From Bosea sp. PAMC 26642 (lineage in GTDB: Bacteria; Pseudomonadota; Alphaproteobacteria; Rhizobiales; Beijerinckiaceae): 64,000 bases of DNA. Each line of letters starts with the position of its first letter. The stretch's first letter is position 1. Location: the NCBI RefSeq assembly GCF_001562255.1, contig NZ_CP014301.1, forward strand, positions 2,046,001 to 2,110,000, written 5' to 3'. The position numbers and the translations under genes are program-made. Under the pieces are notes generated by a model. That model was given only the letters and a program-made list of their open reading frames with translations. It did not search any database and was not told the DNA's origin. This document shows positions 6,519 through 49,922 of this stretch, piece after piece.

Positions 6519-6631
6519 CGTCATTCCGGGCGCAGCGCAGCGGAGGCCCGGAATCTATTCCTGAACATCAAGGCCAGCGTTCCGGCATGGATTCCGGATC
6601 GGCGCCGCTGAAGCGGCTTGTCCGGAATGAC
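6519..6631. repeat. Dispersed palindromic repeat, copy 2
   Basis: This copy starts CGTCATTCCGGGCGCAGCGC and ends TTGTCCGGAATGACAG. The left arm is the GCAGCG type; the right arm is the GATCGGCGCCGCTGAAGCGG type. With a terminator at 6723 it accounts for much of the 476-base gap between the DUF892 gene and icd. Nothing else is recognisable at 6302-6518 beyond the promoter region of the DUF892 gene. Confidence 0.8.
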
Positions 6632-6722
6632 AGTCCGATGGCGTGAAAGATGTGAGAAAGTCCTGAAATCAAATTTTTTCGGATCAGTCCTGAAGCCGCG
6701 CACCACCTCACCCACACTCATC

Positions 6723-6750
6723 AAAAAAGCCCGGCCATCACAGCCGGGCT
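6723..6750 (-). terminator. Terminator of icd
   Basis: On the minus strand the stem AGCCCGGC / GCCGGGCT (6728-6735 and 6743-6750) is followed directly by TTTTTT (6723-6728). It lies 27 bases beyond the icd stop. Confidence 0.88.
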
Positions 6751-6777
6751 TCATCATCGTTGTCAGACCGGGATCGC

Positions 6778-7992
6778 TCAGGCGGACATCGCCTTGCGCA
6801 GATTGTCGCTGACCTTCTCGAGGAAGCCCGTGGTCGAGAGCCACTTCTGTTCGGCGCCGACGAGCAGGGCCAGGTCCTTGGTCATGTCGCCGGCCTCGAC
6901 CGTGTCGACCGTGACCTTCTCCAGCAGCTTGGCGAATTTGGCGAGTTCGGCATTGTCGTCGAGTTTGGCGCGATGCGTCAGGCCGCGCGTCCAGGCGAAG
7001 ATGGAGGCGATCGAATTGGTCGAGGTCTCCTTGCCCTTCTGGTGCTCGCGGTAGTGGCGGGTCACCGTGCCATGAGCGGCTTCGGCCTCGACGGTTTTGC
7101 CGTCCGGCGTCATCAGCACCGAGGTCATCAGACCGAGCGAGCCGAAGCCCTGCGCCACGGTGTCAGACTGCACGTCGCCATCGTAGTTCTTGCAAGCCCA
7201 GACATAGCCGCCCGACCACTTCATCGCCGAGGCCACCATGTCGTCAATCAGGCGGTGCTCGTAGGTGATGCCGAGCTTGTCGAATTCGGCCTTAAACTCG
7301 GCCTGGTAGATCTCCTCGAAGATGTCCTTGAAGCGGCCGTCATAGACCTTGAGGATGGTGTTCTTGGTCGAGAGATAGACCGGGTATTTGCGGATCAGGC
7401 CGTAATTCAGCGAGGCGCGGGCGAAATCGCGGATCGAGTCGTCGAGATTGTACATCGCCATGGCGACGCCGGCCTCGGGAGCCTTGAACACCTCCTTCTC
7501 GATCACGGCGCCATCGTCGCCGACGAACTTGATCGAAAGCGTGCCCTTGCCGGGAAACTTGAAATCGGTCGCGCGGTACTGGTCGCCATAGGCGTGGCGG
7601 CCGATCACGATCGGCTGCGTCCAGCCGGGCACGAGGCGCGGGACGTTCTTGCAGATGATCGGCTCACGGAAGATCACGCCGCCGAGGATATTGCGGATCG
7701 TGCCGTTGGGCGACTTCCACATCGACTTGAGGTTGAATTCCTTCACGCGGCCTTCGTCGGGCGTGATCGTCGCGCATTTCACGGCGACGCCGTGCTTCTT
7801 GGTGGCGTTGGCGGCGTCGATCGTGATCTGGTCGTCGGTCGCATCGCGATTCTCGACCGAAAGGTCGTAATAGTCGAGTTCAAGGTCGAGATAGGGGAAG
7901 ATCAGCGTGTCCTTGATCTTCTGCCAGATGATGCGGGTCATCTCGTCGCCGTCCATGTCGACGACGGGATTGGCGACCTTAATCTTGTTCAT
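6778..7992 (-). CDS. icd: NADP-dependent isocitrate dehydrogenase
   Basis: This TCA-cycle enzyme converts isocitrate to 2-oxoglutarate with NADP. The 404-residue length and the N terminus [20 protein letters not shown] identify the eukaryote-like homodimeric type common in Rhizobiales rather than the E. coli type. The substrate loop region [19 protein letters not shown], the metal-site segment YDGDVQSD and the cofactor segment [14 protein letters not shown] are present. The gene is monocistronic, with its own terminator at 6723 and a perfect inverted repeat in the upstream region at 8033-8058. Confidence 0.96.
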
Positions 7993-8032
7993 GTGAAACG
8001 ACCCCTGATGCTGGCCAGACTGAAACGGCTCG

Positions 8033-8058
8033 CGCCTGCGGCAGGCACGCCGCAGGCG
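8033..8058. repeat. Perfect 10-bp inverted repeat upstream of icd
   Basis: CGCCTGCGGC and GCCGCAGGCG flank a 6-base spacer (AGGCAC). It lies 41 bases before the icd start on the minus strand and 76 bases before the divergent gene at 8134. It could be an operator or an RNA hairpin in the icd leader; no T-run follows on either strand, so it is not a typical terminator. Confidence 0.5.
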
Positions 8059-8133
8059 GTTGGCCGTGTCCTAGCGGGTTAGGGCCGCCGGGGGAAGCGC
8101 GGCTTTTGGGCAAGGCAGCGGCAAGCGCCACTC

Positions 8134-9060
8134 GTGTTGCACTGCCGCAAAAACGGCACCTTCGCCCTTCAGGGTCTGGCGCTCTCTGGTTTTGATCGGG
8201 AACATCTCTTGGATCGCTTTATTCCAGACGCCGCCCTGGCGCGCATCCGGCCGGCCTTCATCGGCTTGACCGTCTCCCTCGCCTGTTCGGCGGCCTCCGC
8301 GGAAGGCTCGACGGAAGCGGGCTATCGCGCACTCTGGCCGCTTCCCTCAGCGCCGCTGGAATCGGCCGAGGCCGCGTCCCAGGGAATGGCGACCGACGAG
8401 CTCGCGGCCTTGATCGAGGCCGGCCCGGAAGGGGATGCGGACGCGGCACTGTTCGCCCCGCTCCGGATGCCGCTGCCCGTGCAGGCGTCGAGAACGGGAA
8501 CGCCCGATATCAGCCGCCCCCTGTCGCTGGGCGTCATCCGCAAGGGATTGTCCGCCCAGGGCCCGGCCACACTCGCCCCCTCCGAGCGCGCAGTCGGCGT
8601 CAAGCTCGGCACCGACGACGTGTTTGCCGTCACCACCCGGCTCGTGACGCCGGCGGATGGCGCCTCGTCCGATGCGCGCATCGACTGGCGGCTGGCGCGC
8701 CCGGTCGCGCCTCACCAGCCAGGCTTCATCTGGACCGTCGCGACCGGCGGAGGCAGCGGCCTCGCCAGCCGCCCGGAGCAGAATGCCGGCCTGATGCTCG
8801 GCTATCGCCAGCCCGTCTTTGCCCATCTCACGCTGACCTCGCAACTGACCATGCAGGGCAACTACGTCTTCGCGCCCGGAGACGGCGCTCATTCCGCCGT
8901 CGTGCCGGAGGTCAAGCTCTCGGCCGACCTCACCGCCCTTGCAAAACTCCCCTTCGACACATCCTTCGATCTCGGGCTCGCACGGCAGATGCCGGTCTTC
9001 GCAAGTCAGTACGAGACCCGCGGCAGCGCAATGCTGCGCGTGAAGTACACCCTCAACTGA
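8134..9060 (+). CDS. Hypothetical exported, possibly outer-membrane-associated protein
   Basis: The frame gives 308 residues from GTG at 8134. The start is uncertain: an in-frame TTG about 25 codons downstream would place a hydrophobic segment (AFIGLTVSLACSAASA) nearer the N terminus like a signal peptide. The middle is rich in Ala and Pro. The last about 120 residues alternate polar and hydrophobic positions (HLTLTSQLTMQGNYVF, TSFDLGLARQMPVF, AMLRVKYTLN), which suggests beta strands. I do not recognise the family. It is divergent from icd and 62 bases before an SDR gene. Confidence 0.55.
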   Translation: MLHCRKNGTFALQGLALSGFDREHLLDRFIPDAALARIRPAFIGLTVSLACSAASAEGSTEAGYRALWPLPSAPLESAEAASQGMATDELAALIEAGPEGDADAALFAPLRMPLPVQASRTGTPDISRPLSLGVIRKGLSAQGPATLAPSERAVGVKLGTDDVFAVTTRLVTPADGASSDARIDWRLARPVAPHQPGFIWTVATGGGSGLASRPEQNAGLMLGYRQPVFAHLTLTSQLTMQGNYVFAPGDGAHSAVVPEVKLSADLTALAKLPFDTSFDLGLARQMPVFASQYETRGSAMLRVKYTLN

Positions 9061-9122
9061 CGCGGGCAGCCCCGCCGAAAGCACGGCTTCCCTCACCTGG
9101 CGCATCGCTCTAGCCTGCTGCC

Positions 9123-9860
9123 ATGACACGAGACGCCTCCCCCAGATTTGCCCTCGTCACCGGCGGCACGCGCGGCATCGGCGCCGGTGCTGCCCTGGCG
9201 CTCGCCTCGGCCGGATACGAGGTCCTCGCCACCGGCCTGACCGACAAGGAGGTCGCGGCCGCCCCGCCGCATCCCGCGATCCGCCACGCCCGGCTCGACG
9301 TGACCAGCGACGCGCAGGTCGCCGCCATCGTCGCGCTTTGCCCGCGGCTCGACGCGCTGGTCAATTGCGCCGGCATGATCCAGCGCAACGGCAAGGAATT
9401 CGAGATCGACGCCTTCCGCCTGACGATCGAGGTCAATCTCAGCGGCAGCATGCGGATGTGCCTCGCCGCGAAGGACAAGCTCGCAGCCATCTCATCGGAC
9501 AAGGCCGGCGGCGCGATCGTCAACATCGCCTCGATGCTGACCTTCCACGGCTCGGCCTTCGCGCCGGGCTACGCCGCCTCCAAGGGGGCGATCGGCCAGC
9601 TGACCAAATCGCTCGCCGCCGCCTGGGCGCAGGACGGCATCCGCGTCAACGCCGTTGCGCCCGGCTGGATCGAGACCGAGCTGACAAGGCCGCTTGTCGA
9701 GGACGCGGCCCGCTCCGCCCCCATCCTGGCGCGCACCCCGATGAACCGCTGGGGGCAGCCTGGCGATGTCGGCGGCGCGATCGCCTTCCTGCTCTCCGAC
9801 GCGGCAGCCTTCGTCACCGGCGCGATCCTGCCCGTCGATGGCGGCTATCTGGCGGTGTGA
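9123..9860 (+). CDS. SDR-family NAD(P)-dependent oxidoreductase
   Basis: This is a classical short-chain dehydrogenase of 245 residues. The cofactor-binding motif is VTGGTRGIGAG near the N terminus, NCAGMIQRNG is the NNAG-type motif, the catalytic Ser is in NIASMLTFHGS, and YAASK gives the catalytic Tyr and Lys. The C-terminal GAILPVDGGYLAV is typical of sugar- or ketone-acting members. The cupin gene 106 bases downstream on the same strand may act in the same pathway. The substrate cannot be told from sequence. Confidence 0.88.
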   Translation: MTRDASPRFALVTGGTRGIGAGAALALASAGYEVLATGLTDKEVAAAPPHPAIRHARLDVTSDAQVAAIVALCPRLDALVNCAGMIQRNGKEFEIDAFRLTIEVNLSGSMRMCLAAKDKLAAISSDKAGGAIVNIASMLTFHGSAFAPGYAASKGAIGQLTKSLAAAWAQDGIRVNAVAPGWIETELTRPLVEDAARSAPILARTPMNRWGQPGDVGGAIAFLLSDAAAFVTGAILPVDGGYLAV

Positions 9861-9966
9861 GGAATGGCGCGGAACGACGAAATATCGAGGTAAAGCAAGG
9901 TGTTGGCCCGATTTTCGGAATCAGACCGTCAACACCTTGGATCAAAACCAAAGCGGGAGAAACGCC

Positions 9967-10512
9967 ATGAACAAGGTCAGCCCCATCCCGGTCGTCGCCT
10001 CCGACGCCGAGCGTTGGACACCCTACCGCCATCCGCAGCCGAAGGATTCCCCGCCCGAACTGATCGTTCACGACGTCATCCCGGAAGACGAACGCATCTG
10101 GGTGCCTGTCGATGACAATGTCTGGTTCCGCCCGCTCTGCCTGTCCGTCACGCGTGGCTACTGGATGAACCTGCTGCGCGTCCGCCGCTCGGGCGTGCTC
10201 TCGCGCCACCGCCATCCGCAGCCGGTCCACGGCTATGTCCTGAAGGGCAAGTGGCGCTACCTCGAACATGACTGGGTCGCGACGCAAGGCTCTTATGTCT
10301 ACGAGGCACCGGGAGAAACCCACACCCTGGTCGTCGATCCCGATGTCGAGGAGATGATCACGATGTTCCAGGTCAACGGCGCGATGATCTATGTCGATCC
10401 GGACGGCAAATGCCTCGGCTATGACGACGTCTTTACAAGGCTCGACAAATGCCGCGCGCATTACGCGGGCAACGGGCTCGGAGCGGAATTCGCCGATCAG
10501 TTCATCAGATAA
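9967..10512 (+). CDS. Cupin protein of the 2,4'-dihydroxyacetophenone dioxygenase family
   Basis: The product is 181 residues with a single cupin barrel. The metal motif appears as SRHRHPQPVHGYVLKGKWRY, followed by a second box with EAPGETHTLVVDPD, giving the usual His and Glu ligands. The overall pattern (WVPVDDNVWFRPLCLSVTRG) matches the family of 2,4'-dihydroxyacetophenone dioxygenase, which cleaves a carbon-carbon bond with iron. The ATG is chosen because GGGAG (9956-9960) lies 6 bases upstream; a longer open frame overlaps the SDR. The true substrate is unknown. Confidence 0.75.
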   Translation: MNKVSPIPVVASDAERWTPYRHPQPKDSPPELIVHDVIPEDERIWVPVDDNVWFRPLCLSVTRGYWMNLLRVRRSGVLSRHRHPQPVHGYVLKGKWRYLEHDWVATQGSYVYEAPGETHTLVVDPDVEEMITMFQVNGAMIYVDPDGKCLGYDDVFTRLDKCRAHYAGNGLGAEFADQFIR

Positions 10513-10527
10513 GCGAGGACGTCTCCG

Positions 10528-10935
10528 CTACCGCCCCAGCTTCGCTAGTTCCACCGCCGCGCGCAGTTCGATATGCGCCAGCACCTCGTCGAGACGGGGA
10601 TCGTCGGTGCTTTCGCGCCTGAGCGACAGCACGTCCTTCAGCCGCTCCAGCTCCGAGATCTGGACGCGGCCCGACAGCAGCGCCGCCTTCAGCCGGTCGA
10701 GCCCGTCGAGCAGGTCATGGCCGCGCTTCGCCTGGCGCTTCTTGCGCTCCTGCGGCTCTTCATGCGCCTGCACGGCGAGAAGCGTGTCGAGCGGCCCGGC
10801 CGAGCTGACGCCCGCCCCGCGCGCGGCAGCCGCGCTGTCCTTGCCGGGAAGGGTGAAGGCGGCCCCGCCGCTGCGCCTTGCCGGGTTGGCCGGGCCGGTG
10901 CCTGTGACGGGTGCGCGCTGGTCGATCCGGATCAT
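10528..10935 (-). CDS. fliX: Flagellar assembly trans-acting regulator FliX
   Basis: This is a 135-residue alphaproteobacterial protein. Its position divergent from flgI is the same as in Caulobacter, where FliX couples completion of the class II basal body to activation of FlbD. The N-terminal half is Gly/Ala-rich and probably flexible. The C-terminal half is helical and charged (HDLLDGLDRLKAALLSGRVQ, LDEVLAHIELRAAVELAKLG), as in the family. The ATG at 10935 is preferred over a TTG at 10947. The assignment rests on the helical C terminus and on context. Confidence 0.8.
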   Translation of the reverse strand: MIRIDQRAPVTGTGPANPARRSGGAAFTLPGKDSAAAARGAGVSSAGPLDTLLAVQAHEEPQERKKRQAKRGHDLLDGLDRLKAALLSGRVQISELERLKDVLSLRRESTDDPRLDEVLAHIELRAAVELAKLGR

Positions 10936-11162
10936 GGCGCCTCGCAAAATACTGACGCCAGACTAGGGCGCCGCAGGGTTAACAACCGGTAAATCACCCG
11001 GCAGAAACTGCCGGCCGGGCAGGATCGGCAGGCTCGATCTGCCGACCGTGATCATGACTCAAAAACTCAAACAACTGAAAAATATGGCTTTTCAACTTGT
11101 CCGCATCTGGCACGCGGATCGCAAGGCGTGTGGCGTTGCCCTTGTCACGAGTCGGTATCCTT
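10936..11162. promoter_or_regulatory. Divergent fliX/flgI control region
   Basis: This 227-base gap separates two divergent flagellar genes, so it must carry both promoters. GTTAA-CAACCGG-TAAA at 10978-10993 resembles a CtrA site (GTTAA-N7-TTAA) with one mismatch. An AT-rich patch lies at 11054-11100. No promoter can be assigned with confidence. Confidence 0.4.
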
Positions 11163-12296
11163 ATGTTCCGAGCGACCGCCTTCAAACGCCTGACGACCAC
11201 CCTGGCCCTGCTGCTGGGGTTCGGCTTCGTCATCGCGGCGGGGCCGGCTCAGGCGCTCTCCCGCATCAAGGACCTTGCGGCCGTCGAAGGCGTCCGCAGC
11301 AACCAGATCCTCGGCTACGGCATCGTCGTCGGCCTCAACGGCACCGGCGATACGCTCAACAACGCGCCCTTCACCAAGCAGTCGCTGACCGCGATGCTGG
11401 AGCGGCTCGGCGTCAACACCCGCGGCGCCAACATGCGCACGGCGAATGTCGCAGCTGTCATGGTGACGGCCAACCTGCCGCCCTTCGCCACGCAGGGCAC
11501 GAAGCTCGACGTCACCGTCTCGGCTTTGGGCGATGCCAAATCGCTGCAGGGCGGCACGCTTCTGGCGACGCCGCTGCTCGGCGCCGATGGCGAGGTCTAT
11601 GCCGTCTCGCAGGGCGCGGTCGCCATCGCCGGCTTCTCGGCCGAGGGCGAGGCCAGCAAGATCACCCGCGGCGTGCCCACCGTCGGCCGCATCGCCAATG
11701 GGGGCCTCGTCGAGCGCGAGATCGACTTCGCGCTGAACAAGCTCAAGACGCTGCGGCTCTCGCTGCGCAACCCCGATCTCACCACCGCGCGCCGCATGGC
11801 CGCCGCGATCAATGACTTCCTCGGAGGCGATGCCGCCGAGCCGACCGACCCCTCGACCGTCGTGCTGCAGATCCCGGCCCGCTTCCAGGGCAACATGATC
11901 CGTATGCTGACCGATATCGAGCAGCTCAAGATCGAGCCCGACCAGCTCGCGCGCATCGTCATCGACGAGCGCTCCGGCATCATCGTCATGGGCAAGGATG
12001 TCCGCGTCTCCACCGTGGCGGTGGCGCAGGGCAACCTGACCGTGACGATCAGCGAACTGCCCCAGGTCAGCCAGCCCAACCCACTGGGCGGCGGCCGGAC
12101 CGTCGTGACGCCGCGCACCGCCGTCAAGGTCGACACCGAAGGCGGCAACAAGCTCGCGCTGGTCAATGCGAGCGTGACTCTGGCCGAACTCGTCGACGGG
12201 CTGAACGCGCTCGGCATCGGCCCGCGCGATCTCATCGCCATCCTCCAGGCCATCAAGACGGCCGGGGCCCTGCAAGCCGAAATCGAGGTGATGTAA
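11163..12296 (+). CDS. flgI: Flagellar P-ring protein FlgI
   Basis: This is the 377-residue periplasmic subunit of the P ring, the bushing of the flagellar rod in the peptidoglycan. The ATG at 11163 gives a signal peptide (FKRLTTTLALLLGFGFVIAA ending at AQA). The mature start SRIKDLAAVEGVRSNQILGY is the FlgI signature, and VTPRTAVKVDTEGGNK and LVDGLNALGIGPRDLIAILQ are at the usual C-terminal positions. The stop overlaps the start of flgJ (TAATG), so the two are translationally coupled. Confidence 0.96.
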   Translation: MFRATAFKRLTTTLALLLGFGFVIAAGPAQALSRIKDLAAVEGVRSNQILGYGIVVGLNGTGDTLNNAPFTKQSLTAMLERLGVNTRGANMRTANVAAVMVTANLPPFATQGTKLDVTVSALGDAKSLQGGTLLATPLLGADGEVYAVSQGAVAIAGFSAEGEASKITRGVPTVGRIANGGLVEREIDFALNKLKTLRLSLRNPDLTTARRMAAAINDFLGGDAAEPTDPSTVVLQIPARFQGNMIRMLTDIEQLKIEPDQLARIVIDERSGIIVMGKDVRVSTVAVAQGNLTVTISELPQVSQPNPLGGGRTVVTPRTAVKVDTEGGNKLALVNASVTLAELVDGLNALGIGPRDLIAILQAIKTAGALQAEIEVM

Positions 12297-12682
12297 TGAG
12301 CGTAACGCTCGCCCTCCCCGCCGCCAAACTGGCGCTGAACGCGGCCGGCAGCCTTCTCGGCGGCCTGACCAATGCGCTCGACCCCGCCAAGGCCAAGGCG
12401 AAGAAGCAGGCCGACGATTTCGAGACCATGTTCCTCGAACAGGTCACCGAACGTATGTTCGCCGCGCCGGAAGGCTCGGAAGGCCCGCTCGGCGAGAACG
12501 GGCTCGGCGGCGACGTCTACAAGTCGCAGCTGACCCAGGAATACGCCAAGCAGATCCAGCGCGCCGGCGGCGTAGGCCTGTCGAGCAGCATCATGCGCGA
12601 CCTGCTTGCCGTCCAGGAGCAGACCGGTGCCACCGCCAAAACCGCAACACAGACCGCCGGGGTCGCGAATGTCGGTCGCTAG
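12296..12682 (+). CDS. flgJ: Rod-binding protein FlgJ (short, no muramidase domain)
   Basis: The product is 128 residues and corresponds to the N-terminal rod-binding domain of FlgJ, as in other alphaproteobacteria that lack the peptidoglycan hydrolase half. KKQADDFETMFLEQVTERMF and GGDVYKSQLTQEYAKQIQRA are the family motifs. It assists rod assembly in the periplasm. The start ATG shares a base with the flgI stop, and the end overlaps the next gene by 14 bases. Confidence 0.9.
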   Translation: MSVTLALPAAKLALNAAGSLLGGLTNALDPAKAKAKKQADDFETMFLEQVTERMFAAPEGSEGPLGENGLGGDVYKSQLTQEYAKQIQRAGGVGLSSSIMRDLLAVQEQTGATAKTATQTAGVANVGR

Positions 12683-13157
12683 GCGCATCCTCGACGAGCG
12701 TCCCCGCATCGCCAGCCCGCTCGAGGCGCAGGCGCTGATCGAGATCGTCCTCGAAACGCTCAGTGCCCTCTCCCACCTCGTCGGCGAGGAAACCGAACTC
12801 GTCCGGGCCGGGCGCCTGCCCGACGCCATGGCGCGCGAACCCCGCAAGACCGAACTCGCCGGCACCTATATGCGCGGCGTCGAGCAGGTAAAACTCAATG
12901 CCGTGGCGCTGGCGCGCTTCGTGCCCGAGCAGGTCAAGCGGCTGAAGACGGCCCATCTCGCTTTCCAGGGCCTGATCGAGACCAACCAGCTCGTCCTGGC
13001 GACAGCCCGCGCCGTCTCCGAGGCGATCATCCGCGATCTCGCCGGAGAGGCAAACCGCCCCGCGCGCGCGGCCGGATATGGGCCGGCCGCGACAGTCGGC
13101 GCCGGCGCCTTCGCCCGCCCCAATGCCGGCCCGCTGGTGGTTTCGCGCAGCCTCTGA
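12669..13157 (+). CDS. FlgN-like flagellar export chaperone
   Basis: This is a 162-residue helical protein starting inside the 3' end of flgJ. The long amphipathic helices (LEAQALIEIVLETLSALSHL, KTELAGTYMRGVEQVKLNAV) and the position after flgJ match the gene often annotated as FlgN in Rhizobiales. FlgN chaperones the hook-associated proteins FlgK and FlgL, both encoded nearby. The C-terminal 40 residues are Ala/Gly/Pro-rich and probably disordered, as expected for the substrate-contacting tail. Sequence similarity to enterobacterial FlgN is weak, so context carries much of the call. Confidence 0.65.
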   Translation: MSVARRILDERPRIASPLEAQALIEIVLETLSALSHLVGEETELVRAGRLPDAMAREPRKTELAGTYMRGVEQVKLNAVALARFVPEQVKRLKTAHLAFQGLIETNQLVLATARAVSEAIIRDLAGEANRPARAAGYGPAATVGAGAFARPNAGPLVVSRSL

Positions 13158-13361
13158 GGCCCGATTCCTGCTGAAAATCCCGGCATTCGCACCCCATAAG
13201 GCCGCGACCTGCCACACACGTAAATTTTGACTGAATTCCCTTACGTCAGATTCAAGAGTTTTTGCCAGTGTGATTGGAGTTGGATGGGAGAAGCCCGTCC
13301 GCGATCCGCAAGACGTCGAGTGGCCCCCGCTGCCGCTCCCGACTCCAGAAGGAGTGAAACC

Positions 13362-13829
13362 ATGGATTTCGGCAACGCGCAGAAGGTCACGCCCGTCATG
13401 GGCATCACGCTGGCGCCCCGCTCCGACATCGTCGCCACCCAGGGCGGCGTCAAGGTCGAGCTCCCCCCCGAGAAGACCGTGCAGTCCGCCCGCGCCGGCG
13501 ACGCGGTCCGCGTCGACATCAAGGAGCGCCCGGCACGCGAAGCGCAGGACGCAAAGGTCGAGGACCGCTCCGGCGAAACGGATCGCCAGGCCCAGATCCA
13601 GGTCCAGCGTCAGCAGCAGGCGGTCAAGGACACGATCGAGCGCCGGCTGACGATCGAGCCGGCGACCCGCGAGATCGTTCTCCAGAAGACCGACCTCGAA
13701 ACCGGCGAGACCGTCGAGACCGTGCCCGACGAGGCCACCCTCAAGTTCAGGCGCTTCGCACGCGAGATCGCCGAGCGCGCCCGTGCCGCTGAGGATACGA
13801 CGGCGCGCTATGTCGAACGCACCGCCTGA
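13362..13829 (+). CDS. FlaG-like flagellar protein (tentative)
   Basis: The product is 155 residues; ATG at 13362 has AAGGAG (13349-13354) at 7 bases. The second half contains REIVLQKTDLETGETVETVP, which resembles the FlaG core pattern (V-x-V-x-D-x-ETGEVIRQIP), followed by a helix FRRFAREIAERARAAE. Before it is a Gln-rich charged stretch (QIQVQRQQQAVKD). It lies between the FlgN-like gene and the flagellins. FlaG proteins affect filament length in other bacteria. The match is short, so this remains a suggestion. Confidence 0.5.
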   Translation: MDFGNAQKVTPVMGITLAPRSDIVATQGGVKVELPPEKTVQSARAGDAVRVDIKERPAREAQDAKVEDRSGETDRQAQIQVQRQQQAVKDTIERRLTIEPATREIVLQKTDLETGETVETVPDEATLKFRRFAREIAERARAAEDTTARYVERTA

Positions 13830-13857
13830 TACCTTCTCAGACGTGCCGCCGGACCAG

Positions 13858-13884
13858 ACTGCCCGCCATCGTGCGGGCAGTTTT
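13858..13884 (+). terminator. Terminator after the FlaG-like gene
   Basis: An 8-bp stem CTGCCCGC / GCGGGCAG with a 6-base loop is followed by TTTTCGTTTG. It lies about 30 bases past the stop at 13829. Confidence 0.85.
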
Positions 13885-13936
13885 CGTTTGTGGACAAGCG
13901 CAGCCCGGATCATCGACCCCTTTCAGGCAAACGCGC

Positions 13937-14052
13937 CGTCATTCCGGACAAGCCGCGAAAGCGGCGCCGATCCGGAATCCATGCCGGAACGCTGGCCTTG
14001 AGAGGTTCAGGCATGGGTTCCGGGTCTGCGCTTCGCTGCGCCCGGAATGACG
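13937..14052. repeat. Dispersed palindromic repeat, copy 3
   Basis: It opens CGTCATTCCGGACAAGCCGC and closes CGCCCGGAATGACG. The arms are swapped relative to copy 2: the left arm is the AAGCCGCGAAAGCGGCGCCG type and the right arm the CTTCGCTGCGC type. Together with the terminator at 13858 and the flagellin leader it accounts for the 488-base gap between the FlaG-like gene and the first flagellin. Confidence 0.82.
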
Positions 14053-14261
14053 CGGAGGGAATGATAGCGGCCTGTGCCATTATCATTTTGGACGCTTATC
14101 GGGCCCAGGATTTCTGAAACAGGCCGGGAGTCCAAATGCGATCGCCCCGCTCGCCCGCTTTCAGCCTTGATTAACCACGCAGCGGGTTCGAGCCGATCCG
14201 GCGCAATTCGACCGTCCGAATTTACCCCTTGTTACGAGCTGCCGACCAAATGTCTGCGGGA

Positions 14262-14310
14262 CACGGCCAGAACGGCCGTGCCGCCAGAAGGCGTCATACC
14301 AGAAGGGTAT
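14262..14310 (+). promoter_or_regulatory. Structured 5' leader of flagellin 1
   Basis: Two hairpins precede the start codon at 14318. One is CACGGCC-AGAAC-GGCCGTG (14262-14280). The other is ATACC-AGAAG-GGTAT (14296-14310), whose loop and first stem base hold the ribosome binding site AGAAGG. FlbT, encoded downstream, acts on flagellin mRNA leaders in related bacteria, so this could be its target. The fold and the link to FlbT are inferred. Confidence 0.45.
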
Positions 14311-14317
14311 TCTTACA

Positions 14318-15655
14318 ATGGCTATCTCTCTCTCCAGCAACGTCCGCAACTCGCTGACCTCGCTTCAGTCCATCACCAGCCAGGCCGCCGCCGTCCAGAG
14401 CCGTCTTGCCTCGGGCAAGAAGGTCAACAGCGCCGTCGACAACCCGGTCAACTTCTTCACCGCTCAGTCGCTGAACAACCGTTCGGACCAGCTCAAGGGC
14501 CTGCTCGACGGCATCTCGAACGGCATCCAGACCATCCAGGCCGCCTCCAAGGGCATCGACGGCATCACCAAGCTCGTTGGTTCGCTGCAGTCGACCATCA
14601 AGCAGGCCCAGGCCGACGCAGCCCAGAACCGCCCGACCGTCGTCGGAACCGGCACGACGCTCGCCAGCTCGGCTGAAGCCCTGCTGACCAGCAAGAGCCT
14701 CAAGGACATCGCTCTCGACAAGCGCGTCGGCAGCGCCGGTGACACTACCGTCGCCACCGCAACGGCCGCTTCTGCCGGTGACCTCGGCGTCGACACCACT
14801 GCGACCGGCTTCCTGAACATCCAGATCGTCACGAACCCAGCAGCAGCAACCTCGACGACCAATGTCAGCGTCGCCTTGACCGCCAACACGACCGTCCGCG
14901 ACGTCGTCAACGCGATCAACAGCTCGGGCGTCGCTTCGGCCTTCGTCGACGAAAAGGGCCTGCTGAACGTCAAGGGCTCAGGCTCCGAGACACTCGGCGT
15001 CGGCCTCGGTGTCGGAGCTACCGCCATCGCTGCGACCGGTACATCCGCGACTGGTGCGTCTAACACCGCGTTCGGCCTGGCCGCGACTGACGCCACGACG
15101 GGTATCGCCTCGTCCGGCGTCACCTCCGCCACCCGCTCCAACCTCATTCAGCAGTACAACGACCTGCGCACGCAGATCGACTCGCTGGCCAAGGATTCGG
15201 GCTTCAACGGCGTCAACCTGCTCGGCGGCGACAAGACCACGATCACCTTTAACGAGAAGACCGGCAAGAACCAGACCAAGCTGGAGATTCAGGGCACCAA
15301 CCTGACCTCCGACAACATCGGCCTCGTTCAGGCCGGTAACGCCCAGGTCGCCGGTACGATCAACTTCCAGAACGACACCGATCTGGACAAGGCCACCGGT
15401 GCGCTGACCAACGCGCTCGGTTCGTTGAAGTCGCTCGCCTCGACCTTCGGTGCCAACCTCGCGGTCGCCCAGACCCGCCAGGACTTCACCAAGGATCTGG
15501 CCAACGTCCTGACGACCGGCGCCGACAACCTCGTCAACGCCGACGCCAACGAAGAGGCCGCCGCCCTGCTCTCGCTGCAGACCCGTCAGCAGCTCTCGCA
15601 GACGGCCCTCTCCCTGGCCTCGCAGTCCGACCAGGCCGTCCTGCGTCTGTTCTGA
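14318..15655 (+). CDS. Flagellin 1
   Basis: This is a filament subunit of 445 residues. The conserved N-terminal D0/D1 helix (MAISLSSNVRNSLTSLQSIT then SRLASGKKVNSAVDNPVNFF) and the C-terminal helix (TRQQLSQTALSLASQSDQAV) pack the filament core. The Ala/Thr-rich centre (about residues 115-275) is the surface-exposed variable part. The protein ends LRLF, as alphaproteobacterial flagellins do. A second, closely related flagellin follows at 16294. FlbT and FlaF, encoded next, control flagellin output. It has its own leader and terminator. Confidence 0.95.
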   Translation: MAISLSSNVRNSLTSLQSITSQAAAVQSRLASGKKVNSAVDNPVNFFTAQSLNNRSDQLKGLLDGISNGIQTIQAASKGIDGITKLVGSLQSTIKQAQADAAQNRPTVVGTGTTLASSAEALLTSKSLKDIALDKRVGSAGDTTVATATAASAGDLGVDTTATGFLNIQIVTNPAAATSTTNVSVALTANTTVRDVVNAINSSGVASAFVDEKGLLNVKGSGSETLGVGLGVGATAIAATGTSATGASNTAFGLAATDATTGIASSGVTSATRSNLIQQYNDLRTQIDSLAKDSGFNGVNLLGGDKTTITFNEKTGKNQTKLEIQGTNLTSDNIGLVQAGNAQVAGTINFQNDTDLDKATGALTNALGSLKSLASTFGANLAVAQTRQDFTKDLANVLTTGADNLVNADANEEAAALLSLQTRQQLSQTALSLASQSDQAVLRLF

Positions 15656-15709
15656 TCCATCTTCGTCCGCAGAAGCGGGCAAGCCCATAGAATATGGGCC
15701 GAAGACAAG

Positions 15710-15745
15710 AAGGCGGCGGAGCGAAAGCTCCGCCGCCTTTCTCTT
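15710..15745 (+). terminator. Terminator of flagellin 1
   Basis: A perfect 13-bp stem AAGGCGGCGGAGC / GCTCCGCCGCCTT closed by a GAAA tetraloop is followed by TCTCTTTC. It lies 55 bases after the stop. A smaller hairpin GCCCAT-AGAAT-ATGGGC lies just before it. Confidence 0.92.
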
Positions 15746-15758
15746 TCGTAACCTCTTC

Positions 15759-15856
15759 CGTCATTCCGGGCGAAGCGAAGCGCAGACCCGGAATCCATGC
15801 CGGAACGCTGACTTTGAGAGGGTCAGCATGGATCCCGGCTCAAGGCCGGGATGACG
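15759..15856. repeat. Dispersed palindromic repeat, copy 4
   Basis: It starts CGTCATTCCGGGCGAAGCGA and ends CAAGGCCGGGATGACG. The right arm is a short variant (GGATCCCGGCTCAAGGCCGG). It carries an intact GACCCGGAATCCA (15785-15797), the same sequence into which the IS110 element at 48698 is inserted in another copy. Confidence 0.82.
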
Positions 15857-15874
15857 GTGGTGGCTGAGGGTGAA

Positions 15875-16036
15875 TCAATCCAGATGGACAGTCCCGTAGA
15901 GGTCGTTCCAATCCGGATTGCCTTTCTCGACAAGCGCGATCTTCCACGCCCTGCGCCAGCCTTTGATGGGCGTCTCCTGGTCGATCGCTTCATCGGCCCG
16001 TTCATGGGCCTCCGCGTAGACGAGGCGATTGACGCC
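15875..16036 (-). pseudogene. Remnant of a GIY-YIG nuclease-family gene
   Basis: The minus-strand frame encodes about 53 residues that match only the C-terminal end of small GIY-YIG proteins: NRLVYAEAHERADEAIDQE, IKGWRRAWKIALVEKGNPDW, then DLYG. The N-terminal half with the GIY and YIG motifs and catalytic Arg is missing; at about 16036 the frame runs into repeat copy 5, so no start or nuclease core remains. It lies between the two flagellin genes. It is a broken gene, not a functional nuclease. Confidence 0.75.
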
Positions 16037-16137
16037 GTAGCGAAGCGCAGACCCGGAATCCATGCCGGAACGTCGAAACCGGCCGTTCCGGCATGGATTC
16101 CGGATCGGCGCCGCTTCGCGGCTTGTCCGGAATGACG
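16036..16137. repeat. Dispersed palindromic repeat, copy 5 (left end truncated)
   Basis: The copy lacks the usual CGTCATTCCGGG start and begins near TAGCGAAGCGCAGACCCGG; the right end GTCCGGAATGACG is intact. The missing left end coincides with the edge of the GIY-YIG remnant, so the two are joined at the break. GACCCGGAATCCA is present at 16050-16062. With copy 4, the remnant and the terminator it accounts for most of the 638-base gap between the flagellins. The rest (16138-16293) is the flagellin 2 leader, with TTAAC at 16209 and 16226. Confidence 0.78.
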
Positions 16138-16293
16138 GTCCTCCCCAGCAGAATCCGGCGAGGTCACACAAATGTCTCCTGTCCAGCTCTGCCGACAGAG
16201 CTCCGCCATTAACCAATTGTTATCCTTAACGAGGGATTATCGGTCCAGATCAAACCGGGCAGGCGTGCGAATCGCGCTTTCAGGGGACCAAAG

Positions 16294-17649
16294 ATGGCCA
16301 GCACAATTCTCTCCAGCGGCGTCCGCAACAACCTGCTGACCTTGCAGCAGACGACGGCGCAGCAGAGCGTCATCCAGAACAGGCTGGCGACGGGCCGCAA
16401 GGTCACTTCGGCCATCGACAACCCGGTCAATTTCTTCACCTCGCAATCGCTGAGCGATCGCTCCAGCCAGCTAACCGGCCTGCTCGACGGCATCTCGAAC
16501 GGCATCCAGACCATTCAGGCTGCATCCAAAGGCATCGACGGCATCACCAAGCTGGTGCAGTCGCTCCAGTCCACCGTGAAGCAGGCTCAGGCCGACGCGG
16601 CCCAGAACCGGCCGACCAAGGCCGGCACGGCGCTCTCCTCCGCGACCGAAGCGGCCGTGACCAGCAAGAGCCTGAAGGACATTGCCCTCGACAAGCGCAT
16701 TCGGGATACGACCGGCGTCGATGTGCTCGACGACGGCATCGCCAACGCGGCGACCGCCTCCAGCTCGGGCGACTTGGGCATCGTCGAAGCGCAGACCTTC
16801 CTCGGTCTTTCGATCACGGCCGGCACTACGACCTACACGGCCTCGTTCCCCAGCGCCAATGCCACCGTTCGCGACGTCGTCAACGAGATCAACAAGTCGG
16901 GTATCGCCACCGCCTTCGTCGATGAGAAAGGCCAGCTCAACGTCAAGGGCACCGGCTCCGAAACCGTTGCCTTCGGCTTCGGCACCTCCGCCGTAGATGG
17001 CGCCGGTGCAATCACCGACGCTGCCGCTGTCGGAACCAACAACAACACCGCGCTCGGCTTTCTCGCCAACGACGGCGCCGCCGCCACCTCGGCTCTGACC
17101 TCGTCGAACATCACCTCGGCCGTCCGCTCCAACCTCATCCAGCAGTTCAACGACATTCGCGATCAGATCGACAAGCTCGCCAAGGATTCGAGCTTCAACG
17201 GCATCAACCTGCTGGCCGGCGACCGCCTCTCGATCATCTTCAACGAGAAGACCGGCGCCAACCAGACCAAGCTCGACATCCAGGGCTCGACCCTGACCTC
17301 GGACAATCTCGGCATCGTCCAGGCCACCAACACGCAGCTGACCGGCTTCTTCAACTTCCAGAACGACCTCGATCTCGACAAGGCGACAGCTGCCTTGACA
17401 GGCTCCATGACCTCGCTGAAATCGCTCGCCTCGACGCTGGGCTCCAATCTCTCGGTCGCTCAGACCCGCCAGGACTTCACCAAGGAGCTGGCCAACGTGC
17501 TGACCACCGGCGCCGGCGCCCTCGTCCTCGCCGATCCCAACGAGGAAGGCGCCAGCCTGCTTGCGCTCAACACGCGCCAGCAGCTCTCGCAGACGGCGCT
17601 CTCGCTCGCCAACCAGGCAGACCAGGGCGTGCTGCGGCTCTTCGGCTGA
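16294..17649 (+). CDS. Flagellin 2
   Basis: The product is 451 residues, a tandem paralogue of flagellin 1. The N-terminal segment around GLLDGISNGIQTIQAASKGI and the C-terminal TRQQLSQTALSLANQADQGV are nearly identical to it, while the central region (about residues 120-275) has diverged. It ends LRLFG. The gene lies 55 bases before flbT on the same strand, so flagellin 2, flbT and flaF may form one transcript. Its leader differs from that of flagellin 1, so the two may be expressed differently. Confidence 0.95.
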   Translation: MASTILSSGVRNNLLTLQQTTAQQSVIQNRLATGRKVTSAIDNPVNFFTSQSLSDRSSQLTGLLDGISNGIQTIQAASKGIDGITKLVQSLQSTVKQAQADAAQNRPTKAGTALSSATEAAVTSKSLKDIALDKRIRDTTGVDVLDDGIANAATASSSGDLGIVEAQTFLGLSITAGTTTYTASFPSANATVRDVVNEINKSGIATAFVDEKGQLNVKGTGSETVAFGFGTSAVDGAGAITDAAAVGTNNNTALGFLANDGAAATSALTSSNITSAVRSNLIQQFNDIRDQIDKLAKDSSFNGINLLAGDRLSIIFNEKTGANQTKLDIQGSTLTSDNLGIVQATNTQLTGFFNFQNDLDLDKATAALTGSMTSLKSLASTLGSNLSVAQTRQDFTKELANVLTTGAGALVLADPNEEGASLLALNTRQQLSQTALSLANQADQGVLRLFG

Positions 17650-17704
17650 TCGCGCCGAAGACGCCCGGACAACACCCCTCCCCCAGCCAGAAGGCTCGCA
17701 CATC

Positions 17705-18097
17705 ATGGCGCTCAAGGTCGAACTCAAGCCCAAGGAACGCATCATCATCGGCCAGGTGGTGATCCGCAACGACGAGCAGCGCACGCGCTTCTTCATCGAG
17801 GGCGACGCGCCGATCCTGCGCGAAAAAGACATCCTCACGGCCGCCACAGCCGACAGCCCGGCCAAGAAGATCTATCTGGCGCTGCAGCTGATGTATCTGG
17901 CCGAGGACCCGATGCACCAGCACGAGCTCTATTTTCAGCTGGTGCGCGACTTCGTCAACGCGGCGCCGAGCTCTCTGCCGCATATTCACGAGATCAATAA
18001 CCGCATCTTAAGCAGCGAGCTCTACAAAGCTCTCAAGGCAGCCAAGAAGCTGATCGCTTACGAAGCGGAATTGATCGAGAATGCAACACGGGCATAA
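17705..18097 (+). CDS. flbT: Flagellin mRNA regulator FlbT
   Basis: This is a 130-residue post-transcriptional regulator of flagellin synthesis in alphaproteobacteria. MALKVELKPKERIIIGQVVI is the family's N terminus, and KKIYLALQLMYLAEDPMHQH and HEINNRILSSELYKALKAAK are conserved. In Caulobacter FlbT binds the flagellin leader and destabilises the message until the hook is complete; in some relatives it activates instead. ATG at 17705 is chosen over upstream in-frame codons because it gives the family start. The gene overlaps flaF by 17 bases. Confidence 0.95.
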   Translation: MALKVELKPKERIIIGQVVIRNDEQRTRFFIEGDAPILREKDILTAATADSPAKKIYLALQLMYLAEDPMHQHELYFQLVRDFVNAAPSSLPHIHEINNRILSSELYKALKAAKKLIAYEAELIENATRA

Positions 18098-18452
18098 CGC
18101 GTACGCCTCCGCCGCCAGGACGAACCAGTCGGTCGTCTCCCCCCGCGAACTCGAAGCCTCCCTGCTGATAAAGGCCGCCGCGCGGCTTCAGTCGATCGCC
18201 GACGAATGGGCGACCCGCGAGCGCGAACTCGACGACGCGCTGGGCTACAACCGCAAGCTCTGGACGCTGCTGGTCTCCGCCGTGGTCGCGGAAGACAATC
18301 TGCTGCCCATCGGCATCAAGACCAACATCATCAGCCTCGCCAACTTCATCTTCAACCAGACCTTCAAGATCGCCGCGAGCCCGACGCCACAGAGCCTCGC
18401 CGTGCTGATCGGCATCAACCGCGAGATCGCGGCAGGACTGCGCAATCGCTGA
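18081..18452 (+). CDS. flaF: Flagellar biosynthesis regulator FlaF
   Basis: This is a 123-residue partner of FlbT in flagellin control. The family pattern is clear: ASAARTNQSVVSPRELEASL, LDDALGYNRKLWTLLVSAVV and INREIAAGL. In Caulobacter FlaF is needed for flagellin translation and secretion, opposing FlbT. The start lies within the last codons of flbT, in a different frame, which fits coupled translation. Confidence 0.93.
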   Translation: MQHGHNAYASAARTNQSVVSPRELEASLLIKAAARLQSIADEWATRERELDDALGYNRKLWTLLVSAVVAEDNLLPIGIKTNIISLANFIFNQTFKIAASPTPQSLAVLIGINREIAAGLRNR

Positions 18453-18491
18453 GGCGGACGAGCGGCCTTCGCCGCTCCAGCAGAACGGGAC

Positions 18492-18600
18492 GTCATCCCG
18501 GACAAGCCGCGAAGCGGCGCCGATCCGGGATCCATCATAAGGCACGGTCGGTTTTCTACGATGGATCCCGGATCTTCGCTGCGCTGCGTCCGGGATGACG
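18492..18600. repeat. Dispersed palindromic repeat, copy 6
   Basis: It starts CGTCATCCCGGACAAGCCGC and ends GTCCGGGATGACG. The left arm is the AAGCCGCGAAGCGGCGCCG type and the right arm the CTTCGCTGCGCTGCG type. It lies between the convergent ends of flaF and flgL, where it could also act as a bidirectional barrier to transcription. Confidence 0.82.
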
Positions 18601-48565: not shown

Positions 48566-48664
48566 GGCCGCCCCGTCCGCTTCGCTTCAGCAGCAGAGGG
48601 GACACGCCCAGGCCACGCCGGTCAATCTGCGCAAAGGCTTACTCATCTTTTCACACCACCGCGC

Positions 48665-48697
48665 CGTCATTCCGGGCGGAGCGAAGCGGAGACCCGG
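48665..48697. repeat. Dispersed palindromic repeat, copy 7, left part (split by IS110)
   Basis: CGTCATTCCGGGCGGAGCGA up to GACCCGG is the left arm of the repeat. Its sequence stops at 48697, where the IS110 element begins, and resumes at 49813-49815. Confidence 0.88.
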
Positions 48698-48721
48698 CAA
48701 CTGTGTCGTTGCGCATCCTGA

Positions 48722-49651
48722 TCATGGCTGGAAGGCTGTGTTTGTCTTGATCATGGCGTTGAGGATTGTGAGGAGTTTTCTGGCGACGGCGATCAGGGCG
48801 ACTTTTGCTGCGGCACTTCGTTCGAGGATGGCGTCGTAGAAGGCCTTGAAGCGCTGGCAGGTTCGCTTGGCTGCCAGTGCCGCCATGTAGAGGGCGCTCC
48901 GGACGCGGCTGCGCCCGCCCCTGATGCTGCGCTTGCCGCGGTGGCGGCCGCTGTCGTTGTTGAAGGGGGCCAGCCCCGCCAAGGCTGCTATCGCCTTTGG
49001 CGAGACATGTCCGAGTTCTGGCATCAGCGCGATCAGGGTGGTTGCGGTGACGTGTCCGACGCCCGGCGCCGAACGCAACAGAGCCTGTGTGCGGGCCAGG
49101 GCCTCGTTTGCGCACAAGGCATCGCTGATGAGGCGCTCGAGCGTGTCGATCTCGTCGTCGAGCCAGGCAAGATGGCGCGCCAGGCTGCCGCCTTGGTCCT
49201 GTCCCTCGCTGAGACGGACGCGCTCGGCGGCACGGATCGCGACGAGCTGGTCGCGGCGTTTGTGCAGTTGGGCCAAAGCGTTGCGAGCGGGCTCGACAGG
49301 TGCGTCGGGTTCCAGCGCGAGGCTGCGGGCCATGGCGGCGAGCATGCGGGCGTCGATCGCATCGGTCTTGGCCAGGCGCCCCGTGGCACGGGCGAAGTCA
49401 CGCGCGCGCGCCGGATTGAGGCGCACGAAACGCAAGCCGGCCTGCTCCAGCGCCTGGCGCAGGGTTGCATCGTAGGGCCCAGTCGCCTCGAAGGCGACGA
49501 GGCTGCCGGCCGGATCGGCCAGCCCCGACAGCCAGGCCGCGATGGCCGGGCTCGTATTGGCGATACGAAGACTTGTGCCGCTCGCCTCATCGAACAGGTC
49601 GAGATGGTGTTTGGCGATATCGCATCCGATGAAGCAGGGGTGTATCGTCAT
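48722..49651 (-). CDS. IS110-family DEDD transposase (bridge-RNA-guided recombinase type)
   Basis: The product is 309 residues. The N-terminal RuvC-like domain has the DEDD residues D11 (GCDIAKHHLD), E55 (FEATGPYD), D97 and D100 (KTDAIDA). The C-terminal domain has SAPGVGHVTATTLIALMPEL and LAPFNNDSG, in which S234 is at the position of the catalytic Ser of IS621. The ATG at 49651 gives the family N terminus MTIHPCFIGCDIAKHH; the frame is open further upstream but crosses the element boundary. The gene appears complete. Confidence 0.93.
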   Translation of the reverse strand: MTIHPCFIGCDIAKHHLDLFDEASGTSLRIANTSPAIAAWLSGLADPAGSLVAFEATGPYDATLRQALEQAGLRFVRLNPARARDFARATGRLAKTDAIDARMLAAMARSLALEPDAPVEPARNALAQLHKRRDQLVAIRAAERVRLSEGQDQGGSLARHLAWLDDEIDTLERLISDALCANEALARTQALLRSAPGVGHVTATTLIALMPELGHVSPKAIAALAGLAPFNNDSGRHRGKRSIRGGRSRVRSALYMAALAAKRTCQRFKAFYDAILERSAAAKVALIAVARKLLTILNAMIKTNTAFQP

Positions 49652-49812
49652 GGGGCCTGTCCCTGTGCTGCGAGGTCCGGTGCAAGCGGCCTCGGTCAAC
49701 TGTTCAGGATGGGTCTTGGAACGCGGGCGGGAGCCTGGCCGGGTCACGGTGTTTGCCACCAGGAATCCAACGGCTTCCCGCCCGCACCAATCATGACACA
49801 GATCAAACACAA
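49652..49812 (-). ncRNA. Candidate IS110 bridge RNA
   Basis: This 161-nt noncoding region lies between the element end and the transposase start. Read on the minus strand it contains, in order, TGGATTCC (49769-49762) and GACCCGG (49745-49739), either side of the hairpin GGTG-GCAAA-CACC. The first equals one side of the insertion target and the second is complementary to the other side, in the sense expected of left and right target guides. Further on, ACAGTTG (49703-49697) equals the element's own far end, and CACAGGG (49667-49661) pairs with its near end CCTTGTG allowing one G-U. The order target loop then donor loop matches IS621. Confidence 0.75.
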
Positions 49813-49814
49813 GG

Positions 49815-49892
49815 AATCCATGCCGGAACGCCAATCTCGGAAAGGTTCAGGCATGGATTCCGGGTCGCAGCTTCGCTACGCCCGGAATGACG
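49815..49892. repeat. Dispersed palindromic repeat, copy 7, right part
   Basis: AATCCATGCCGGAACG resumes the interrupted left arm, and a second full arm follows to CGCCCGGAATGACG. The right arm itself contains an uninterrupted TGGATTCCGGGTC (49854-49866), a second potential target for the same element. Confidence 0.87.
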
Positions 49893-49922
49893 GCGCTTGT
49901 GCCATAGAGGCCTGTCCCGTCG

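Follow-up and report, generated by a model that had tools for sequence, protein, structure and literature searches.

An insertion sequence of the IS110 group, carried by a Bosea-type bacterium, almost certainly encodes in its left end a bridge RNA, which would be transcribed from the excised circle and guide insertion of the element, at a CC core, into a dispersed repeat of its host. The target guides match the flanks and co-vary with them, the fold is conserved, the element is inserted at the predicted point and the repeat is uninterrupted in some relatives. The system is a bridge-RNA-guided, REP-targeting IS110 element, of a kind already known. The window, meaning the whole stretch of DNA that was analysed, comprises 64,000 nucleotides; the element occupies 1115 bp of its minus strand (48698-49812) and has in addition one CC core in common with its target, as deduced from the flanks of three genome copies and from the uninterrupted locus in congeners.

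The element and its insertion site

The recombinase (309 aa; 48722-49651, minus strand) has both Pfam domains of IS110 transposases, PF01548 and PF02371, i.e. a DEDD RuvC-like domain and a Transposase_20 domain with its conserved serine. It matches the NCBIfam model NF033542 ‘IS110 family RNA-guided transposase’ with 189 bits (cut-off 140), and in a PDB search its residues 7-307 align with IS621 (E 9.6e-32) and ISCro4 (E 1.3e-32). By alignment and counting by eye, residues D11, E55, D97, D100 and S234 fall on D11, E60, D102, D105 and S241 of IS621, five positions at which mutation abolishes recombination according to the accessible part of the IS621 report (PMC11208158). A long non-coding left end (LE) of 161 nt (49652-49812, minus strand) and a short right end (RE) reaching 24 nt past the stop codon are features of the IS110 group, not of the IS1111 group. 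Plasmid matches to the transposase, 12 from Sinorhizobium medicae and one from an Agrobacterium plasmid, are all under 60%.

In all three copies of the genome, TGGATTCC stands at the left and CCGGGTC at the right, and CC alone is common to both junctions (in the window 48696-48697 at the right and 49813-49814 at the left, minus strand). The left flank ends in GGCATGGATTCC and the right flank starts with CCGGGTCTCC, which gives TGGATTCCGGGTC as the empty site with the common CC. The genome (5.5 Mb) contains 70 occurrences of this 13-mer and 0 of its backward reading. The dispersed target repeats are often double palindromes, and the one interrupted here, recognized from the window sequence and from congener loci, has its left part at 49813-49892 and its right part at 48665-48697. 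At the orthologous locus, 4 of the 11 relatives fetched have the repeat uninterrupted (L128, L129, L130 and L132, with masked bases in L130) and the other seven have a different sequence at this spot; the flanking genes, which we take to be an SDR gene and a uracil-DNA-glycosylase-like gene, adjoin each other in 10 of the 11. Collectively, the CC that alone is common to the junctions and the uninterrupted repeat in 4/11 relatives indicate scarless insertion with a CC core, as expected in the IS110 family. Elsewhere in the window (6588-18562), both alleles of the palindromic repeat are represented by additional copies.

The three copies differ at their ends and in their frames. The left end reads CCTTGTG in the window copy and CCTGTGTG, one base longer, in the two sister copies; with its left terminus one base short, the window copy may be impaired as a donor. 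Both sister copies (L049 and L054) look frame-broken near the start, since their ATG frame stops at codon 205 and their protein match runs over residues 13-309 without a stop. Only the window copy reads through, yet its left end is the one that is a base short.

Targeting of REP repeats by IS110 elements has been in print since 2006, also for the same order (PMC1525189). ISRm19 of Sinorhizobium meliloti, like the window element from the Hyphomicrobiales, was found in REP repeats in 4/4 cases; in contrast to the present reading, an RNA guide is absent from the accessible discussion of ISRm19 and other REP-specific IS110 elements (Tobes and Pareja 2006, PMC1525189), whose likeness is drawn from their description.

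Target guides and their co-variation with the flanks

The original prediction had proposed two target-guide segments, a small hairpin and two donor segments on the minus strand, and each lies where it was placed (49762-49769, 49748-49760, 49739-49745, 49697-49703 and 49661-49667). The left target guide TGGATTCC (49762-49769) is identical to the left flank (8/8), and the right target guide GACCCGG (49739-49745) is complementary to CCGGGTC. They stand on either side of the hairpin as had been claimed, the first equal to the left half of the empty site and the second complementary to its right half, CC included. As a measure of chance, 20,000 13-mers were drawn at random from the window: the target-loop region contained the left 8 for 57 of them and the right 7 for 209, but both halves, correctly ordered, for none.

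A comparison of guides and flanks across copies, suggested as a check in the original prediction, was passed by left and right guides. It covers 48 copies from 16 species groups, with one majority flank per group at group level. In 41/48 copies the left guide and the left flank agree over all 8 nt (8/8); the others are L025 from Labrys (5/8) and L087, L088, L093, L095, L098 and L106 (7/8). Two later-found left ends, L048 and L053, agree at 7/8 each and bring the count to 41/50. At group level, 127/128 guide–flank positions agree against a shuffled mean of 105.7, and 127 is reached in 0/100,000 shuffles, which leave shared descent in, related groups not being independent draws. Six left guides are found among the 48 copies (TGGATTCC, TGGATCCC, TGGGTTCC, TGGGTCCC, TGGGCCCC and GTGCACCC), each with its own flank, which is hard to explain by descent alone. 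The targets of these elements are spelled TGGRYYCC-GGNNN (GTGCACCC in Labrys). At its three variable positions the right guide scores 24.2/33 over 11 groups (37 copies) against 11.3 after shuffling (0/50,000 as high), the right guide of G271, which was mis-parsed, counting as mismatches. This guide is loose in several groups, with 6/7 in every copy of G033 and G020, and 5/7 in L021 and in four of five Labrys copies.

The guides of seven copies were read by hand (five loci of Bosea lathyri, now Allobosea lathyri of the order Hyphomicrobiales, together with L021 and L023), and L080 and L087 are among the 48 though they have no transposase match. Omitted were groups of 31-43% identity (L029, L030, L044, L047, L056, L059, L062 and L064-L068), right-hand fragments at contig ends (L045, L046, L052, L057 and L060), L043 with its left terminus lost, L048, L053, L085, which has no transposase match, and 4 of the 13 G238 matches. 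Duplicates were also set aside: L042 (identical to L021), L084, L091, L096, L100 and L104 (Labrys), and L081, L089 and L094 (the three home copies).

The repeat itself offers a natural test of guide-directed insertion, with two alleles that differ by a single base and are about equally common in one genome, and three copies that all lie in the one spelled by the guide. Sites of the two alleles in the home genome number 153 for TGGATTCCGG and 147 for TGGATCCCGG; the corresponding numbers in relatives are 77/217 (G033), 53/129 (G020) and 61/371 (G006). Copies occupy the allele spelled by their guide in 3/3 cases at home, 6/6 in G033, 2/2 in G020 and 5/5 in G006, the last count taking G006 as B. 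lathyri. Thus the home copies have a T guide and T sites (3/3), whereas those of G033 have a C guide and C sites (6/6). By hand calculation, and if insertions are independent, such a match without preference has a chance of ∼0.005.

In Labrys okinawensis (L024), the left end of one element is interrupted by that of a second copy, at a point exactly within the left target guide of the first. Since the DNA of this guide (GTGCACCCCGG) nearly spells a full target, the element seems, from these letters, to have landed in its own guide.

Donor guides, predicted fold and circle junction

The left donor guide ACAGTTG (49697-49703, minus strand) equals, as proposed, the terminal bases of one element end, namely the right terminus, and the right donor guide CACAGGG (49661-49667, minus strand) is complementary to the left terminus (CCTGTG in the sisters). 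Both are invariant in the 16 aligned left ends and, as ACAGTTG and CACAGG, fit the joined ends ACAGTTG-CC-TGTG. The claim that CACAGGG can pair with the other end stands in part. Six nucleotides, CACAGG, pair cleanly with the sister ends, but the window copy's own left end CCTTGTG needs a G–T pair; given the difference between CCTTGTG and CCTGTGTG, clean pairing is with the sister end only. Donor guides of 7 nt (ACAGTTG) and 6 nt (CACAGG) matching the element ends, here those of the sisters, are what a bridge RNA should have.

The predicted RNA (about 49652-49785, minus strand) is supported by a model match and by its fold. RNAalifold on the 16 aligned left ends gives a target stem-loop followed by a donor stem-loop, both with internal loops. 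In the target stem-loop, the 5′ side of the stem (49772-49785) pairs with its 3′ side (49723-49735), with both-side changes in 5/13 pairs, and the apical hairpin GGTGGCAAACACC (49748-49760) has such changes in 3/4 pairs. In the apical hairpin of the donor loop (GAGGCCG...CGGACCTC; 49672-49693), both sides change in 1/8 pairs and seven pairs never vary. When the guides are kept single-stranded, 29 pairs remain; 99.1% of their cells are paired, compared with 34.6-45.3% when the partner strand is slid. Both-side changes affect 9/29 pairs, a number reached by 0/500 shuffles, and 8 of these 9 belong to the target stem-loop; most donor-loop pairs never vary and so are no test of the fold. Of five pairing measures, one (further pair types) is not above shuffles, 485/500 of which are as high. 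Folding of 49652-49787 gives a z of -2.38, and model R1, which represents the bridge strand of the window's family, matches 49655-49787 with 145.5 bits, the window copy being part of the model. The folding check named in the original prediction thus returned a conserved two-loop structure with compensatory changes, mainly in the target stem-loop. With this fold, the co-variation in 48 copies and the position of the element inside a palindromic repeat, the prediction that the RNA directs the element into the dispersed repeats is supported.

At gathering scores, no Rfam family (0) is found in the window. Below significance, the Chloroflexi-1 RNA (RF01698) matches 49701-49798 on the minus strand (E 0.14), i.e. 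on the bridge strand over the target-loop stem, and this family might merit the same check as sX15 below.

The closest well-described relative is IS621 (Durrant et al. 2024, PMC11208160, and Hiraizumi et al. 2024, PMC11208158, compared here through their accessible parts). The recombinases are homologous over nearly their full length and agree at all five catalytic positions. Both elements have a long left end, a short right end and a palindromic-repeat target, and both have a two-loop RNA, predicted in the case of the window element, with left and right target and donor guides (LTG, RTG, LDG and RDG) in common order and sense; the junction promoter of IS621 has a candidate counterpart here, by sequence. 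They differ in their core, CT in IS621 but CC in the window element, and in their repeat, which is another, alphaproteobacterial one here, and their proteins are only distantly similar. In addition, the IS621 group has a 5′ stem-loop before the target loop, whereas the consensus of the window's family has no stem 5′ of the target-loop stem; its predicted start, itself inferred, leaves no room for one, and the predicted RNA is shorter.

Other IS110 elements of these genomes also lie in or beside repeats. In G033, a second group (L064-L068, ∼35% protein identity) is found in the repeat family of the window element, but with its insertion point displaced inwards by a few bases (GGATCCCGG, then A/G); the bases at its two junctions show no obvious fit to one common dinucleotide core. 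Further groups of 39-43% identity (L056, L059 and L062 in G020, and L044 and L047) stand beside what appear to be other dispersed repeats, and the bridge-RNA model also matches L044, L047 and L056.

Three features go beyond the original prediction: a circle-junction promoter, a possible antisense transcript and a link with the Rfam family sX15. The predicted promoter has its extended -10 (TGTCATGAT; 49790-49798, minus strand) in the left end. Its -35, TTGCCT, forms only when the right end (TTG), the CC core and the left end (T) are joined. In joined RE–LE sequences, TTGCCT precedes the extended -10 (TGn plus hexamer) by 17 nt in 15/16 members and by 16 nt in the window copy, owing to the one base that is lacking there. 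All 16 aligned members agree in the key -10 letters (T15, G16, A19 and T23, numbered within the left end). By hand count, 8/12 letters of the junction promoter agree with the consensus. A sigma-70 scan of the integrated element (48650-49900) for sites with at least 9/12 letters found none on either strand, a result that says nothing on the junction promoter with its 8/12. The accessible text on IS621 describes a promoter formed at the RE–LE junction (PMC11208160), and the junction sequence deduced for the window agrees with it.

A mechanism can be proposed from these elements. In the excised circle, the right end would bring the -35 across the CC core to the extended -10 of the left end, so that the bridge RNA would be made from the circle. 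The target, TGGATTCC/GGGTC in a dispersed palindromic repeat of the host, would be paired in both of its halves by the 5′ loop of this RNA, and the joined circle ends by its 3′ loop. Strand exchange by the DEDD/serine recombinase would follow at the CC core, leading to a scarless and oriented insertion in one arm of the repeat. Transcription, circle formation and the requirement for the RNA are the parts of this scheme that we infer.

The Rfam family sX15 and the opposite strand

The plus strand of the left end (49647-49802) matches the whole model of Rfam RF02234, sX15. Its score of 35.9 bits (E 5.4e-4 and 1.1e-4) falls short of 55, the gathering score, so that the window sequence itself is not counted as a member. 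sX15 is a Xanthomonadaceae sRNA family in Rfam and presumably comes from a Xanthomonas dRNA-seq study. According to the accessible part of PMC3771888, dRNA-seq found 24 sRNAs in Xanthomonas, and sX15 is named among the RNA families of Herbaspirillum in the available text of PMC6337395. A literature search, with most subscription literature outside its reach, turned up no publication that, judged by its listing, links sX15 with an IS110 bridge RNA. Among 398 phylum-wide genomes, five have an sX15 match, one of them over the cut-off; among 198 genomes from the family of that one genome, 35 have a match, 22 of them over the cut-off. From the 38 genomes with a match, 33 loci were examined, one per genome. 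In 23 of the 33, an IS110 transposase starts within 120 nt of the sX15 5′ end on the opposite strand, reading away. In six of the other ten (L110, L147, L151, L152, L155 and L156) the contig ends within 245 nt on the transposase side, and four (L145, L148, L149 and L150) have room but no transposase start, L148 having pieces of a transposase further in. Model R1 matches 26/28 further sX15 loci (E 0.01 or better), always on the strand opposite sX15, and 7/7 earlier ones likewise, L110 with only E 0.022; on the window's own antisense strand it scores 18.5 bits versus 145.5. Together, the neighbouring transposases and the R1 matches on the complement indicate that most sX15 loci examined are IS110 left ends. 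By its sequence, then, RF02234 is the complement of a bridge RNA, matched over its full length on the opposite strand by the window element.

Guides can be read in part of these loci. In L109, L110, L111, L114 and L115, 8-9 bases of the left flank are spelled in the left end, and six in L117; L112 and L113 have no left-flank match at the expected place. Right flanks match at 7-8 positions in L111, L112, L115 and L117. When the left guide was compared with the flank in 35 sX15 loci under loose end rules, a flank was obtained for 31, and a core-anchored match of at least 7 was seen in 14/31 against 4.5 in shuffled pairs. The 17 loci without one include cases of a wrongly placed core, and L111 and L115 match over 8 nt when the core is set aside; L112, L145, L154, L156 and L161 have a left-guide match of 0 in this test. 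As to their surroundings, sX15-type elements at L109, L135-L137, L139-L146 and L148 are flanked by TAACGCCT or close variants, which we take to resemble an integron attC end, and G975, G988 and G955 have sX15 copies a few kb apart, like a cassette array. A plasmid match to sX15 locus L109 was not found.

The left-end DNA may also make an antisense RNA, started at the transposase end, spanning the bridge RNA and regulating both bridge RNA and transposase, of which RF02234 would be the relatives' version; we give this about an even chance. The opposite-strand arrangement of sX15, transposase and R1 match speaks for it, and so does a promoter-like motif. In 22/29 loci (the 33 minus four near contig ends), TANANT lies no more than 16 nt upstream of the 5′ end that the sX15 model gives, against 0.64 in shuffles; in controls on 28 loci, L155 being too short, it is found at none of six slid positions and not on the other strand. 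Because TANANT stands where a -10 belongs, we lean towards sX15 being a real antisense RNA to an IS110 bridge RNA. The window's family shows weaker signs of such an RNA. A -10-like TATCGT (49643-49648, plus strand), which is transposase codons 2-3 read backwards, is a candidate antisense promoter, and TATnnT recurs in 13/15 relatives. Codon 3 is the rare ATA in 13/15 transposases of this family, compared with ATA for 3/181 other Ile codons, and it keeps the antisense TATnnT three bases before the left end. However, rare codons near starts have other causes, so that ATA is suggestive only; moreover, CTA is found at codon 3 in G238 (two sequences), L043 and L053, where it keeps TAnnnT. Likewise, no good -35 is seen on the antisense strand in the window's family, and the scan of 48650-49900 at 9/12 or better is as empty on this strand as on the other.

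A precedent exists in ISPpu9, likened here by its description, an IS110 element in REP repeats with an abundant RNA, Asr9, that is antisense to the region upstream of its transposase (PMC8450116, accessible part). Asr9 is experimentally shown, in contrast to the antisense promoter-like site of the window, and it is reported there to help, not hinder, translation of the transposase. Alternatively, RF02234 may have been modelled on the wrong strand and be the bridge RNA itself, with no antisense transcript. The good scores of the bridge-RNA model on the sX15 complement would fit, but the modelled 5′ end is preceded, at the proper distance and on that strand only, by a -10 box, which makes this unlikely. 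It is very improbable that the left end is a regulatory leader and nothing more, a structured 5′-UTR like the inhibitory one described with its antisense RNA for ISPpu9 (PMC8450116, same part), with the recombinase protein recognizing the repeat and the guide-like matches being target remnants. Three observations speak against it: a single internal loop carries the target halves on its opposite sides and in opposed senses; from species to species the guides vary together with the flank, and the stems remain paired; and single-base repeat alleles are matched to the guide allele.

With the bridge RNA as the preferred reading of the left end, it is tempting to propose a wider scheme, to which we give slightly less than an even chance. 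IS110 left ends of this kind would be read on both strands. The promoter of the bridge RNA would exist in the excised circle only, and a fixed promoter beside the transposase would be active in the integrated element and yield an antisense RNA, sX15. If so, the frequency of movement would be under the control of an RNA that is complementary to the bridge RNA over its whole length, and an orphan family, sX15, would have been described before bridge RNAs were known. The link with sX15 turns this orphan sRNA family into a handle on the possible control of bridge RNAs, and the window element adds to the known systems alphaproteobacterial ones with a CC core, TGGRYYCC-GGNNN targets and a shorter predicted RNA.
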